Part shown: piece after piece, positions 1 through 22,834 of the stretch
How positions within the stretch are numbered: position 1 is the stretch's first letter
Layout: each line of letters starts with the position of its first letter
IMG/VR virus record: IMGVR_UViG_3300035670_000073
Location: 1-64,000 of that record
Length of the DNA: 64,000 bases
Strand: one strand, 5' to 3'
DNA from: a virus
Translations under genes and position numbers: made by a program
Notes under the pieces: generated by a model
What the model saw: the letters and a program-made list of their open reading frames with translations, nothing else
The model's database searches: none
Told to the model about the DNA's origin: nothing

Positions 1-262
1 AGACTATTTTCAAGGTTGAGGTGGTGACTTGGTGTAGGGGAACAGTCCGCACGGTTTACTTAACTGTAAAAGAGAGCGCTCCGACTGGCGCAGTCACCCT
101 CAACCCCAAAGATTTTAAAAAAAGTTCTTTACAAGTCAGAAAGTTCTGATAAGATATTTTCAAGATTGACGATTAAGTTCATCCGGTTGTTATCCGGAAA
201 ACCAAGAAATAGAGGGCAGTGGGTTACGATTCACTGATAAATACTTGGATGTCAATCTTAAG
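1..262 (+). ncRNA. Two folded RNA domains of unknown class
   Basis: There is no protein gene here. By-eye pairing shows two closed domains, each preceded by a similar TTTTCAAG stretch. The first is closed by GTTGAGG (15-21) with CCTCAAC (98-104), stacked through a TG bulge on GTGACT (24-29) with AGTCAC (92-97), and is followed by C and CCA. The second is closed by AAGATTGAC (162-170) with GTCAATCTT (251-259). It holds TCCGG/CCGGA around TTGTTAT (182-198), CCAAG/CTTGG (202/244) and CAGTG/CACTG (217/232). The TTGTTAT loop would read as an Asn anticodon, but no canonical D or T arm can be built. I take these as structured RNA or decayed tRNA-like units; the class is unknown. Confidence 0.5.
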
Positions 263-267
263 ATTTT

Positions 268-343
268 GGTCTATTGTTGAATGAGTTTATCATAGAATCC
301 TGTCACGATTCAGTAACGAGTGCGAATCTCGTATAGACCGCCA
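268..343 (+). tRNA. tRNA-Asp (GTC)
   Basis: The acceptor GGTCTAT pairs with ATAGACC. The anticodon stem GAATC/GATTC holds loop CTGTCAC (anticodon GTC). The T-arm is ACGAG-TGCGAAT-CTCGT. Discriminator G is followed by an encoded CCA. The T-loop starts TG rather than TT. It is the only fully canonical tRNA in the first 1.2 kb. Confidence 0.93.
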
Positions 344-346
344 CTT

Positions 347-467
347 TTGTTAGTTATAGATGGTATTATATGAGTAGACGGAGAATGATGCCGACACGAT
401 TGTCGGTAATCGCCCAGTAGGGGTATAATACAGGCAGTTAAATGCGGTCATCGAAGCTAACAAACCA
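347..467 (+). ncRNA. tRNA-acceptor-like closed RNA, 121 nt
   Basis: TTGTTAG (347-353) pairs with CTAACAA (457-463) and is followed by A and CCA, exactly like a tRNA acceptor end. The interior is too long for a tRNA and has no readable anticodon arm. It holds a strong stem GTATTATA/TATAATAC and a hairpin CCGAC/GTCGG. It could be a tRNA-like domain of a larger RNA or a decayed tRNA with an insertion. The function is unknown. Confidence 0.4.
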
Positions 468-482
468 ATTTTTTTGTTCTTT

Positions 483-972
483 TTGATATATGGCGGAAAT
501 AGACGCAAGGTGATAGGACTAATGACAATAGTCTGACTTTGTTGGGGTTAAACTCAATGAAAAATCATCTGAATGTATTTGAAATAATACAGAAGAGTTA
601 AAGCAAACATACACAAGGAAATAACTTGAAAGAAACTTTAGCAAGGGCAACCACCAAACTTCGTGAGGGTAATCAATCCCTCTATATCAACAATTTTAGT
701 TCTTTTAATAATTTTTGGGTTCAACCGCTAATGAAAGGTGTCACCTATTGGTTTAGGGGATGGACACTGCGGATCGGAAAATAACCAATACACCGCATGA
801 ATCCAAAACAATTTTGTTTGGGGTGTTACCGAAAGGTAATTGAGATGCAACAGAGAGATACTTATCTAGCGTTAGATCAGATATGAGTGTAATTATATCT
901 GTGATGCAAGTGTTAATGTTACACCATTAATAAACTGCCGCTGAATATGTAGAAATGCTCTTGCCTCAAACA
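483..972 (+). ncRNA. Large ornate structured RNA, unknown class
   Basis: Three consecutive domains are closed by long stems: TTGATATA/TATATCAA (483-490/683-690), an 11-bp TTTTGGGTTCA/TGAATCCAAAA with one G-T pair (713-723/798-808), and TGTTTGGGG/CCTCAAACA (815-823/964-972). The second contains a TATTGGTT/AACCAATA pseudoknot (746-753/783-790). The third contains a GAAA tetraloop hairpin (826-839). It also has two hairpins whose loops are complementary, GTGTAA (887-892) and TTACAC (919-924), a likely kissing pair. Such length and ornament next to phage tRNAs recall the GOLLD and ROOL families. Membership is inference and untested here. Confidence 0.55.
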
Positions 973-989
973 TAGATTTTTTTGTATAA

Positions 990-1062
990 TATATACAGGC
1001 GGTCATTCTAAACTGAGCTGATCACCAGTGGTGAATGAGAGGTTCAAATCCTCTGTATACTA
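990..1062 (+). tRNA. Degenerate tRNA-like gene, identity unclear
   Basis: It has tRNA length and a canonical T-arm, AGAGG-TTCAAAT-CCTCT (1038-1054). This is followed by GTATACT, which pairs only partly with TATATAC (990-996). No normal D-arm is visible. The anticodon region can only form ACTG/CAGT around a 10-nt loop, so no anticodon can be assigned, and CCA is not encoded. It is probably a decayed tRNA or the tRNA-like end of the preceding RNA. Confidence 0.35.
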
Positions 1063-1070
1063 TATAAATA
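1063..1070 (+). promoter_or_regulatory. T4-late-promoter-like TATAAATA
   Basis: An exact match to the T4 late -10 octamer, between two tRNA-like units. The phage encodes a gp55-like sigma (34696-35700), so the site is plausible. One AT-rich octamer is weak evidence. Confidence 0.25.
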
Positions 1071-1090
1071 ACAAGGTACAGATAGACGCG

Positions 1091-1155
1091 TAAGTTCAGC
1101 ATTCGGGTAATGCGCCGGTAATTACAGGAGACTAGGTTCAATTCCTAGGGACTTA
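1091..1155 (+). tRNA. Truncated tRNA-like gene
   Basis: The acceptor TAAGTTC/GGACTTA, a D-arm GCAT-TCGGGTA-ATGC with a GG, and a T-arm CTAGG-TTCAATT-CCTAG are all present. Only 18 nt separate the D and T stems (about 23 expected), and no 5-bp anticodon stem can form. The anticodon arm therefore looks truncated, and CCA is not encoded. It is probably a pseudo-tRNA. Confidence 0.4.
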
Positions 1156-1225
1156 TAGGGAACATATCGCTATCACCATATGGTGAATGTGAGTGAGATC
1201 CTGAAAACTTGTTATATTTTTCCCA

Positions 1226-10548: not shown

Positions 10549-10715
10549 ACAATAAGGTTTGAAACTCCATCTGTTGAACCTCCCTGAGATAATAAAAGGG
10601 GTAAAGATCTCAAAAAATCAATTGATTGGTCCGTAGGTGATATGTATCGTACAGAACCCAAAGGGCGATGACGGAATTGTTGAGGTGATTTCCGTGAATG
10701 TTGAAGTAAGGAAAA
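10549..10715 (+). ncRNA. Conserved tRNA-array leader RNA, copy 1
   Basis: It shares two blocks with 19701-19805: a stem-loop around TTGAAACTCYATCTG (stem AGGTT/AACCT here, GGGC/GCCC there, i.e. compensatory change), and a 3' block containing GGTGATATG, CAGAACCCAAA and GGCGATGACGGAA. This copy carries an extra TGAGAT/ATCTCA hairpin between the blocks. It lies between the array promoter and the first tRNA. Family unknown. Confidence 0.65.
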
Positions 10716-11290: not shown

Positions 11291-11297
11291 TTTTAGA

Positions 11298-11437
11298 TTA
11301 TGTGTAGCTCAGCGGTAGAGCAGAATTCCTAACTATGGGGTAAGCCCGTAAAAATCTTATGTTAGGTCGTAAAATTTTCTTGTAGGATATCTTACAAGTT
11401 GTAAAGGTAGCCGTTGGTTCAAATTCAACCATACAAT
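11298..11437 (+). ncRNA. tRNA body with about 100-nt anticodon-region insert
   Basis: A canonical D-arm (GCTC-AGCGGTA-GAGC) and T-arm (GTTGG-TTCAAAT-TCAAC) are joined by an acceptor with one mismatch (TTATGTG/CATACAA). About 100 nt replace the anticodon arm. The insert folds as CCTAAC/GTTAGG with an inner GGG/CCC, then CTTGTA/TACAAG. No anticodon can be assigned and CCA is absent. It may be a tRNA with an intron-like insert, or a tRNA-like scaffold for another RNA. Confidence 0.45.
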
Positions 11438-11462: not shown

Positions 11463-12128
11463 ATGAATAAAGATTTTAATAGACGTGCATTTACATTGAT
11501 AGAATTGTTGGTGGTGATTGCTATTATTGCAATATTGGCTGGTATGTTATTACCGGCTTTAAGTGGTGCAAAAAGCAAAGCGCAACAAATAAAGTGTCTA
11601 AATAATGCAAGGCAATTGGGTATTGGATTAGAACAATACAAGATTGATTATAGTGATAGTATACCGCCAAGAAGTTTGACTAATCAATGGCCGATGGCGT
11701 TGAAACCATACTTTGAAAGTCAGAATGTGTTAATGTGTCCTGTAGATAAGTTTACAAATAATTTGGTTGAAACGAATATAAATAAAGCTAATAGAAGTTT
11801 TATAATCAATGGATTTAACGATTATTATTTTGATATATTTGATGGTGATTGGGATGTTTTGGAGGAACCAGTGAAAGCTAGTTCAATACCATTTGTGAGT
11901 GAGACTGTTGTATTTGGAGAAAAGACGGGTAAATCAAAACATTTTTATATGGATATATTTGAAGGTAAAGGAAATGATGTAACTGAATTAGATTTTAAAA
12001 AGCATAATGGTGGCTCTACATATATTTTTGTTGATAGTCACGCATCATATTTAAAGTTCCCAAAAGCTTTTCAACCAGAAAATCAATGGGCAATAATTTC
12101 AACATATAGAACCAATTACAATTTTTAA
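11463..12128 (+). CDS. Pseudopilin-like protein (prepilin FTLIE start)
   Basis: The N-terminus has a basic leader, then [20 protein letters not shown]: a type IV prepilin signal (cleavage before F10, Glu at mature position 5) continuing into the hydrophobic pilin helix. The C-terminal region contains [15 protein letters not shown], an H-X9-D motif (H near 181, D near 191; Ser replaces the usual Gly), seen in pseudopilins of Planctomycetota, Verrucomicrobiota and Lentisphaerota. If exported it would sit in the inner membrane or a type II secretion pseudopilus. It lies inside a phage tRNA array, so it was probably acquired from a host. Confidence 0.8.
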
Positions 12129-15988: not shown

Positions 15989-16729
15989 TTAAGTTAATGT
16001 AAATGACCAATTACCTTCGCTATCAGCGGTTGTTGTACCTATCGGACTTTCATTATTATAAACCGTGACTGTGCTTAAAGCAGGCGCTGTACCTGTAATT
16101 GTAGGTGTCGTGTCATCTGTAGGTGATGTGAATGTTACAGTGGGAACGGTTATTTCAAGTATTGTAAAATTTACAACTTTACTGGAATTGCTGAATTCCG
16201 TTCCGTTTGAAGCTACGGCAGTTATTGAATGATTTCCGAATGATAGATTCGTTGTTACGGTAAATTCCCATTCACCAAGTTCGTTAGATGTAGTTTGACC
16301 AAGTAATTGACCACCGTCGTAAATGTAAATTTGTAGATTGGCGTCTGAAAATCCTGATATAGAAGGAGTTCTATCATATGTTGTACCAATTTCATCAACA
16401 ATTGGAACAGATAAACTTTTTACTTGTATAGGTTTCGCTGGAACATATTTTTTAACACTGCCTATAAATTTTTCACCTTGATTTGTATAAGAATAAAGTA
16501 CTACATTAAATCCGTTTATGGTATTTATGGTTACTAATTTAAATTGATATTTTTTATAAAGTTCGTTATAATAATACCAACTTTCTATTATTTTATTTCC
16601 ACTTACATTAAATGCTATTTTTTTGGCAGCAGTTCTTATTGTTGGATTAGGATCGGTCTCGGAAATAGAAGTTAACCAACTAATTAAGTTGTTTTGATCT
16701 AAAAGATATGTATAGTTTACCAATGCCAT
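15989..16729 (-). CDS. Bacterial Ig-like repeat tail protein
   Basis: A 246-aa protein with an unrecognised N-terminal 100 residues, followed by two Ig-like repeats of about 75-80 aa. Both show the Big-type pattern (RTPSISGFSDANLQIYIYDG then GEWEFTVT; TTPTITGTAPALSTVTVYNN then GNWSFTLT). Such repeats are common in phage tail and capsid decoration proteins that contact glycans. It is the first gene of a leftward pair with the beta-helix protein, 5 nt apart, so a receptor-binding complex is likely. Confidence 0.7.
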   Translation of the reverse strand: MALVNYTYLLDQNNLISWLTSISETDPNPTIRTAAKKIAFNVSGNKIIESWYYYNELYKKYQFKLVTINTINGFNVVLYSYTNQGEKFIGSVKKYVPAKPIQVKSLSVPIVDEIGTTYDRTPSISGFSDANLQIYIYDGGQLLGQTTSNELGEWEFTVTTNLSFGNHSITAVASNGTEFSNSSKVVNFTILEITVPTVTFTSPTDDTTPTITGTAPALSTVTVYNNESPIGTTTADSEGNWSFTLT

Positions 16730-16735
16730 TTAATC

Positions 16736-16743
16736 TATAAATA
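16736..16743 (+). promoter_or_regulatory. T4-late-promoter-like TATAAATA
   Basis: An exact match to the T4 late -10 octamer in the short divergent gap. The ATG of the rightward gene at 16769 lies 25 nt downstream, a suitable distance. Confidence 0.4.
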
Positions 16744-16768
16744 TAACTAACTTTGAATATTTATTAAT

Positions 16769-16990
16769 ATGATACGATTAAATCCATTGAGAAGAACACT
16801 TGCTGAATCCGATTCTATAGGCGATGATATTAAGAATGAATTAAATGATAATCAAGTGCTTAGGGTTGAGTCACTTAAGAATAGTACCGGTGATTTACAA
16901 ATATTAGTAATACACTTAAGTAACGGTAAATCTATTAAGATAGGTGGATTTTCTGATGATGATGTAATATCTGCTGAAATAACCCTATAG
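16769..16990 (+). CDS. Hypothetical 73-aa protein
   Basis: Unrecognised. There is an acidic helical first half, then a beta-rich half (LQILVIHLSNGKSIKIGGF). It follows a TATAAATA late-promoter-like site and lies 19 nt before the 399-aa gene, so the two are probably co-transcribed late genes. It may be a virion-associated protein. Confidence 0.5.
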   Translation: MIRLNPLRRTLAESDSIGDDIKNELNDNQVLRVESLKNSTGDLQILVIHLSNGKSIKIGGFSDDDVISAEITL

Positions 16991-17009
16991 TTTTTATATT
17001 TATTAGGGT

Positions 17010-18209
17010 ATGAAACTTAGAGATTTTAAAAAGCTGATATTAGAAACCATTAAAGAATCCAATGAACAGGCATTGGTTCCGTTCCAACAAATTGCACAAT
17101 CTACCAATAGTGTAGAAGACTTTATGAAGAAGTTGGTTGGAAAGAAGTTAAAAAATTTGTTGAATGCTACTAGTTTTTCTAGGTTACATGTGATGAACAA
17201 GTATCCAATCGGTGGAAGTGTTGATGATCAAGATCTACAAGTGTTATTAAGTAATTTGATGGATTCGGTTACTAGTTTCATCAATTTTCGTAAGCTTGAT
17301 GTAATAAATAGACAACGAGATGCTTGGGACAAAGAACACTATTCCAAACCTGAATATAAGGATTGGCAACAAAAGAGATCGCTTACATTCAAATCATATT
17401 TAAATGCTAAAAAGACAGGCGATCAATCTGCAATTGAAAAAGCAACTAAAGAAAAAGATGATGTAATGTCGGCTGATCCAACATTGGGTGATTATAGAAA
17501 AATGATGGATGATATGGAAAAGTTAGTAAGTGATTTTCATAATAGTCCATTGACTTTACAAGATGTGTTGCCAAGTCCCGATGACAGTGATAAAGATAAA
17601 CAAAGATGGCAATCAGTTGAAAAGAATTTTAATAAACTCAAAGATAGAATTTCTATGAACGAAACAAAACTTAAACAATTAATTAAACAACTGATTAAAG
17701 AAGAATTGGATGCTTACGATTTAGAAGGTAATTATCCAGCGGCTACTGTTCAAGTATTTACTGGCGGTGGTCGTGAAGGTACTACACTATTATTATATAA
17801 AGGTGCTTCAAAATCAGGCAGTGAAAGAACTGCTGATGTAGTATACAAGACAAGTACTCCATTCAATTATATTTTAAATACAGTAAATAAGCCAAGCAGC
17901 AATCGTGACGATGAAGATGTAAAGTCAATTTTAAGAAATTTGACACCTGAAGAGTTGGAGATATTAAGTATTGAAAGGAAGATTGTTACTACTAATATTC
18001 CAAATGAGATATTAGATTTGACCGGTAAAAATATTCCAATAAAAAAAGAAAGTGGTGATCCATTCAGAGATATTGTGAAACAAAATGCAAAAATTTATAG
18101 AGATAATGAATTAGATCGTAGAGAAAAAGAAGATTATGCTAGATGGTTAGCCGTAAATAAACCAGACGAATTGAAGAAGAAATTAAAAGCATTAAAGAAA
18201 AATAAGTAA
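17010..18209 (+). CDS. Hypothetical 399-aa protein, possible virion part
   Basis: The start MKLRDFKKLILETIKE resembles the helical N-termini of several virion proteins in this phage (compare 39298, MKIEALKEYIKKTVQQ), and a similar MNETKLKQLIKQLIKEEL recurs near residue 216. This suggests two fused modules, each beginning with an amphipathic helix. Highly charged and mostly helical with no catalytic motif. A strong terminator follows. A structural or scaffold role is inference from these features. Confidence 0.55.
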   Translation: MKLRDFKKLILETIKESNEQALVPFQQIAQSTNSVEDFMKKLVGKKLKNLLNATSFSRLHVMNKYPIGGSVDDQDLQVLLSNLMDSVTSFINFRKLDVINRQRDAWDKEHYSKPEYKDWQQKRSLTFKSYLNAKKTGDQSAIEKATKEKDDVMSADPTLGDYRKMMDDMEKLVSDFHNSPLTLQDVLPSPDDSDKDKQRWQSVEKNFNKLKDRISMNETKLKQLIKQLIKEELDAYDLEGNYPAATVQVFTGGGREGTTLLLYKGASKSGSERTADVVYKTSTPFNYILNTVNKPSSNRDDEDVKSILRNLTPEELEILSIERKIVTTNIPNEILDLTGKNIPIKKESGDPFRDIVKQNAKIYRDNELDRREKEDYARWLAVNKPDELKKKLKALKKNK

Positions 18210-18310: not shown

Positions 18311-18631
18311 ATGAATACATTAACAAAGTTAGAAATGGCTAATATGGTTCTAAACGAAGATAAAAAGAACCAAATTAAAACTATGTTGAAAACTCATTAT
18401 GGAGTCGCTGATGTACAATATAGAGATATGTCTTATGGTATCTGTATTGACATTGAAGGCGTCAATAGTTTTAGATTTATTAAGAATGCCATTGGTAAAG
18501 TTTTAGATGTAACTGAAGATACCATCAGCGTTCTAACAGAAAATGAAGAAAATTTTAAAGCTTCATATGTCTATCTACCAGAGAAAGATAGAGCGCTTAG
18601 TAAGAGACTCAAGAAATTAAATAAATTTTAA
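18311..18631 (+). CDS. Hypothetical 106-aa protein
   Basis: Unrecognised. A helical start (TKLEMANMVLNEDKKNQIKT) is followed by an alpha/beta segment. It has its own consensus promoter, with 8 nt from the -10 box to the start codon, so it is probably an early gene translated from a leaderless or near-leaderless mRNA. No motif suggests a function. Confidence 0.6.
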   Translation: MNTLTKLEMANMVLNEDKKNQIKTMLKTHYGVADVQYRDMSYGICIDIEGVNSFRFIKNAIGKVLDVTEDTISVLTENEENFKASYVYLPEKDRALSKRLKKLNKF

Positions 18632-19694: not shown

Positions 19695-19700
19695 TAGTAC

Positions 19701-19805
19701 ATAATGACGACGGGCTTGAAACTCTATCTGGTGTGCCCTTAAACACTTGATCGGTCACTGGGTGATATGCTTTGTGCAGAACCCAAATGGCGATGACGGA
19801 AATAG
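19701..19805 (+). ncRNA. Conserved tRNA-array leader RNA, copy 2
   Basis: It matches copy 1 (10549-10715) in TTGAAACTCTATCTG within a stem-loop closed by GGGC/GCCC (19712-19715/19735-19738), and in the GGTGATATG, CAGAACCCAAA and GGCGATGACGGAA block. The latter folds as TGGGT/ACCCA. It is shorter than copy 1 because the middle hairpin is missing. It directly precedes tRNA-Val. Confidence 0.65.
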
Positions 19806-22450: not shown

Positions 22451-22834
22451 GGGCGTGTACTGGTATCGATTTAAAAGTACACTTATATTAGGCATGTAGA
22501 GGATAATAGTTGGCCTCTTTAATCATCTATTAAAACATTAACTGCTGAAGATAATGTAATCAGCTATGACTTCTCTTATGATGATGTCGTAGCACTAGCT
22601 GCCTGAGTTGCAGCGCATTCAATATTATGATATCTGATAGTGATATTGGGTGTAAACCATCAGATTGAGACTGTTAATTTGATTTATGTTGACGGTCAAA
22701 TTTTTATAAATCTTAAGAATAATATTTTTAGATATTTTTAATTATTATTCCTAACAATATTAAAATATATAAGCATGTAGTCTGGTATAGGTTACCTTTT
22801 AAAGACGCGAGTTCAACTCTCGCCACGTCCACCA
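22451..22834 (+). ncRNA. ssrA: Phage-encoded tmRNA
   Basis: The tRNA-like ends GGGCGTG and CACGTCC carry the Ala-type G3-T70 pair and an encoded ACCA. The 5' part has TGGTATCGAT, as in tmRNA (TGGATTCGAC), and the 3' end has the T-arm GCGAG-TTCAACT-CTCGC. The reading frame begins at GCT 22544 and ends at TGA 22604-22606, encoding AEDNVISYDFSYDDVVALAA, with the usual ALAA degradation signal. Together with SmpB (not seen here) it would free stalled ribosomes and tag products for proteolysis. Confidence 0.95.

Follow-up and report, generated by a model that had tools for sequence, protein, structure and literature searches.

Probable modular array of small structured RNAs beside a phage tRNA gene, with a kissing-loop RNA found in two phage lineages

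Results

The window analysed here is the first 64 kb (64,000 nucleotides) of a 105.5 kb IMG/VR virus record, and its 5′ end holds an array of RNA units (Table 1) that was compared with the related loci L148, L149, L150, L152, L158 and L065. The units are separated by U-rich spacers, one of which is a common 22-nt sequence. The array is truncated at position 1 by the edge of the record, and as the record of L148 begins on the identical base (also position 1), assembly probably broke off here at a variable point of the array, which is likely to extend further upstream. The longest open reading frame in 483–972 encodes 52 aa, in agreement with the earlier note on this DNA that a protein frame is lacking there, and protein coding was rejected. 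The location beside tRNAs given in that note holds for tRNA-Asp, which is the only tRNA called nearby, most of the tRNA-like units not being recognised as tRNAs. Sites similar to the sigma-70-like promoter of Table 1 lie ahead of several 5′ units in the sequences of L148, L149 and L158, with the consensus scan giving seven sites against 4.7 expected, which is near the chance number. A sequence scan found no intrinsic terminators between the cassettes. Endonuclease genes are found between the units of some relatives, being of the HNH type in the record of L152 and endonuclease-VII-like in L149.

Table 1. Features of the RNA array at the 5′ end of the window.
Feature	Position	Strand	Details
Whole RNA-unit array	15..1225	+	Compared with L148, L149, L150, L152, L158, L065
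Unit A	15..107	+	Long terminal helix closes fold; also in L148
Sigma-70-like promoter TTTACA-16-TAAGAT	128..155	+	Consensus match only; upstream of unit B
Unit B	162..259	+	Long terminal helix; fold z −3.3; another unit in its place in L148
tRNA-Asp (GTC)	268..343	+	ARAGORN
Unit C, 113 nt	349..461	+	Also in L149 and L158; conserved in three loci
Cassette D, 208 nt	483..690	+	Closing stem 483–490/683–690; z −3.9; absent from L148
Spacer TTTTAGTTCTTTTAATAATTTT	694..715	+	Identical in L148, L065, L152 (directly after tRNA-Leu in L152)
Cassette E	714..807	+	Closing stem 714–723/798–807; hairpins 738–767 and 768–797
Cassette F, 156 nt	816..971	+	P1 816–824/963–971; P2 825–840; H1 878–901; H2 911–932
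F loop 1, GTGTAA	887..892	+	Pairs with 919–924
F loop 2, TTACAC	919..924	+	Pairs with 887–892
Unit I	988..1065	+	tRNA-like T-arm, no regular cloverleaf; conserved in L148, L149, L158, L065
Unit G	1090..1156	+	Cloverleaf: acceptor, D-arm, T-arm; hairpin with 3–4-nt loop at anticodon position
Conserved block GGGAAC..TATCGCTA..GTGAGTGAGATCCTGAAAACTTG, 3′ end of array	1157..1225	+	

In five loci, unit G still folds as a cloverleaf whose acceptor stem covaries, and a DNA pattern derived from it gave real matches in L148, L149, L150, L151 (the same contig as L065) and L158, all other matches being chance. With only a 3–4-nt loop at the anticodon position, G should not decode, and it was rejected as a regular tRNA, which would have a 7-nt anticodon loop. 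D, E and F were likewise rejected as tRNAs, none forming a cloverleaf with a 7-nt anticodon loop.

The three domains with closing stems described in the earlier note were recovered as cassettes D, E and F (Table 1), but their union into a single RNA of ~490 nt was not. L148, a near-identical strain, carries unit A, a different unit B′, then directly the TTTTAGTTCTTTTAATAATTTT spacer followed by E, F, I and G, and is devoid of tRNA-Asp, C and D, while L152, a different phage, presents tRNA-Leu, the 22-nt spacer, an unrelated unit, the F homologue and a slightly altered spacer, and thus has neither D nor E. D is therefore inherited independently of F, with E accompanying F in L148 and missing from L152, and this unit content leads us to read 483–972 as three adjacent cassettes of the array. 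In L149, L150, L158 and L065, this place is occupied by still other combinations of units. At the level of these locus comparisons, the cassettes are clearly separable, with the arrays of related phages carrying different sets joined at U-rich spacers.

The folding energies point the same way only in part. Folded separately, D and F reach z scores of −3.9 to −4.0 and −2.9 to −3.2, in keeping with the claim that the pairings exceed chance; this does not extend to E (only −1.3 to −1.55) or to the joint fold of 475–985 (511 nt), for which z is only −1.7 against shuffles. A single large and ornate RNA spanning 483–972 or 344–972, forming a kissing-loop multimer as a divergent relative of GOLLD or ROOL, would agree with the tRNA-side location and kissing loops common to both of those RNAs (PMC12286853), but given this joint fold, the persistence of F where D, or D and E, are missing, and the lack of any relevant Rfam match at E<10, we consider it very unlikely indeed, L148 and L152 having already largely refuted it.

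Within E, 746–753 (TATTGGTT) is the perfect 8-nt complement of 783–790 (AACCAATA), a match reached in 1% of shuffles. The pairing itself, described before as an 8-bp pseudoknot, is thus present, but a loop-loop contact would describe it equally well, as the two hairpins of E abut at 767/768 and carry the complement in their loops; these hairpins do not belong to the minimum-energy fold when the loop contact is left out. E is otherwise known only as the nearly identical copy in L148, and a homologue of D was not found, with the folds of both cassettes being model predictions.

Both the GAAA tetraloop hairpin and the kissing loops claimed for the third domain were confirmed, the former at 825–840, with the kissing segments being exactly the two 6-nt loops of the neighbouring hairpins H1 and H2 of F. 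A 6-nt loop-loop match of this kind arose in none of 500 shuffles, and in ~0.7% of 300 in a second run. Unit J of L158 also has a 6-nt loop-loop match (0 of 300 shuffles), and unit H of L158 one of 5 nt (1% of shuffles); with some twenty units scanned, a lone 1% result means little, and it is F and J that stand out. Unit J (2819–2952 of L158) has the 10-mer AATAACCAAT in common with the second loop of E. This 10-mer is paired in J with J's own TGGTTAT loop, and J may be distantly related to E, the order of the hairpins being swapped.

Over 155 aligned positions, F differs by 22 substitutions from its homologue in L152 (1537–1697), whose loop pair reads GTGTGA and TCACAT. The model pairs 118 of the 156 positions of F, and 20 of the substitutions lie in paired positions. 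Four pairs are kept by double changes, at 822/965 in P1, 829/836 in P2, 913/930 in H2 and 891/920 in the kissing loop, with the remaining pair changes comprising nine compatible single-side changes and three breaks. When the same substitutions were shuffled over positions of the same base in 20,000 trials, the number of double changes was matched in 0.1% and breaks were as few in 0.1%, with no trial achieving both (<5e-5). The covariation sample consists of two diverged sequences only, the window and L152, and one of the four double changes leans on the model through a structure-placed gap in the alignment of H2, the columns of the other three being aligned identically by MAFFT. Of the covariation that the earlier note looked to as a check, compensatory changes were seen in F; D and E have no diverged homologue. 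On this two-lineage comparison, the fold of F, including its kissing loop, is evidently under selection, which upholds the description of a non-coding RNA that is structured, lies next to tRNAs and has genuine pairing between loops.

These compensatory changes also bear on whether the array is a graveyard of decaying phage tRNA genes that drift and do nothing. Units I and G do resemble altered tRNAs, several units go unrecognised as tRNAs, and the endonuclease genes in the arrays suggest selfish mobility; however, the changes in F are strongly compensatory, the cloverleaf of G is kept with a covarying acceptor across its five loci, and D, E and F have no cloverleaf at all. Such a graveyard seems to us quite improbable.

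The stretch CUGCCGCYGAAUAUGUAGAAAUGCUCUUG is nearly identical in both lineages of F despite being largely unpaired in the model, as might be expected if F and its neighbours were base-pairing regulators that use this stretch to pair with host or phage mRNAs. Against this, complements to F longer than 12 nt were absent from the parts of the phage genome examined, and compact closed folds are less usual among base-pairing RNAs, making such regulators a doubtful proposition. By the same search, an antisense role for F against these parts of the phage's own genome was rejected.

A covariance model of F gave clear matches in the window record and in those of L148 and L152, and nothing beyond one chance-level match in 16 other records, whilst DNA patterns derived from F and run against IMG/VR and 84,980 bacterial and archaeal genomes returned L148 and L152 only. 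BLAST of 344–1260 against 50,697 phage records and 72,556 plasmids yielded chance matches only, with no T4-type match among the phage records by blastn. Searches with neighbouring proteins reached 54 loci through the carbamoyltransferase and 80 through a 172-aa protein, none of which showed the RNAs, and a 188-aa protein led to one true relative, L065. At the gathering score, the only Rfam matches in the window are tRNAs and a tmRNA elsewhere; GOLLD, ROOL and OLE gave no match over 1–1300, at either the gathering score or E<10, in a search run without a positive control. With no relevant Rfam match and occurrence in two phage lineages, F may fairly be called a new small RNA family, as the earlier note had allowed in speaking of a new class. 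Its other suggestion, a divergent member of GOLLD or ROOL, is disfavoured by the same Rfam result and by the separate inheritance of D and F.

Several further elements were observed elsewhere in the window and in related records. An RNA-like element that is conserved and has covarying helices (TTGAAACTCCATCTG ... TGGGTGNTATGC ... ACAGAACCCA ... GGCGAT) occurs at 10569–10680 and 19700–19805 of the window, at ~4180–4310 of L003, ~16995–17130 of L065 and ~430–560 of L147; in several phages it closely precedes tRNA arrays and itself follows a promoter-like sequence. It has no match in Rfam or the phage records, and is perhaps a leader or a new class of small RNA. The phage encodes a tmRNA (22451–22834) with predicted tag AEDNVISYDFSYDDVVALAA. 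A pseudopilin-like gene with a prepilin N-terminal motif lies within a phage tRNA array (11463–12128), its product weakly matching a Verru_Chthon cassette protein among others, which may hint at a host in the Verrucomicrobiota. The tRNA-like genes at 11295–11437 of the window and at 18592–18714 of L065 contain long additional stretches, which may represent an insertion or intron, and the latter gene scores above the Rfam tRNA cut-off despite its 123 nt. In L002, a long frame of collagen-like Gly-Thr-Ser-Gly repeats (16690–17544) extends beyond the opposite end of the record.

Discussion

We interpret D (208 nt), E (94 nt) and F (156 nt) as neighbouring small-RNA cassettes, part of a modular array that also contains tRNAs, tRNA-like units that do not decode, and further structured RNAs, a reading to which we assign a probability of about 0.6. 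The nearest known kind is the pair of stable RNAs C and D of the T4 tRNA cluster (“species 1 and 2”; rnaC 139 nt, rnaD 119 nt), which are likewise small structured RNAs within a phage tRNA cluster, are of similar size, lie outside Rfam and have no known function. The tRNA-like ends of the T4 RNAs (a T-arm-like stretch in rnaC and ...GCACCA in rnaD) are a further point of resemblance. A homing endonuclease gene stands beside the T4 RNAs, comparable with the endonuclease genes between the units of relatives of the array. However, no sequence relation between the two was found, and the T4 cluster has two fixed RNAs, whereas the array has many units that vary between relatives. Furthermore, E and F are not tRNA-like and have loop-loop contacts. 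The annotation of T4 describes its RNAs as small and stable, while those of the array are predicted only.

The arrangement of parallel neighbouring hairpins of similar length joined through their loops, as drawn here for F and E, is that of the purine riboswitch type. No sequence relation to these riboswitches is seen, and E and F are not the leader of a gene.

GOLLD and ROOL are of phage or prophage origin, occur near tRNA islands and contain kissing loops (PMC12286853). The array resembles GOLLD in its phage or prophage origin, its tRNA neighbourhood (tRNA-Asp and tRNA-like units here), its kissing loops and its unknown function, and shares with ROOL the phage or prophage origin, the tRNA neighbourhood and, again, the kissing loops. 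GOLLD exceeds 800 nt in many members and has a conserved 3′ domain, in contrast to the separable units of 94–208 nt described here, and ROOL is one large RNA that builds a cage of eight chains, unlike cassettes that are inherited separately.

For the modular array, the following scheme may be envisaged. Sigma-70-like promoters would drive a precursor transcript of the array, from which cleavage at the U-rich spacers would release small RNAs, as in tRNA clusters, with the terminal helix sealing each unit into a stable RNA, and the contact of two neighbouring hairpin loops presumably keeping E and F compact. The favoured guess at their function, though one with the odds against it, is that the RNAs mimic tRNA-like host RNAs, or act as decoys of them, and in this way bind an RNA-acting host factor, which might belong to translation, to RNA processing or to a defence that cuts RNA; the turnover of units between phages would, as part of this same guess, reflect changing hosts. 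It is a longer shot still that the loop-loop RNAs (E, F, J and possibly H) and the non-decoding tRNA mimics form a rapidly exchanged toolbox with which phages counter RNA-targeting defence or translation control by the host. In its strongest form, this would have the loop-loop contacts made in trans, so that F, if this were true, would assemble into a small RNA-only multimer.

The array also advises caution, as an “ornate” large RNA read from one genome may in fact be several small ones. RNAs near phage tRNAs, such as C and D of T4, GOLLD and ROOL, have no known function, and the array shows that these neighbourhoods can hold short, swappable cassettes joined at shared spacers. F is small (156 nt), its kissing loop is supported, and it would be easy to make and test.
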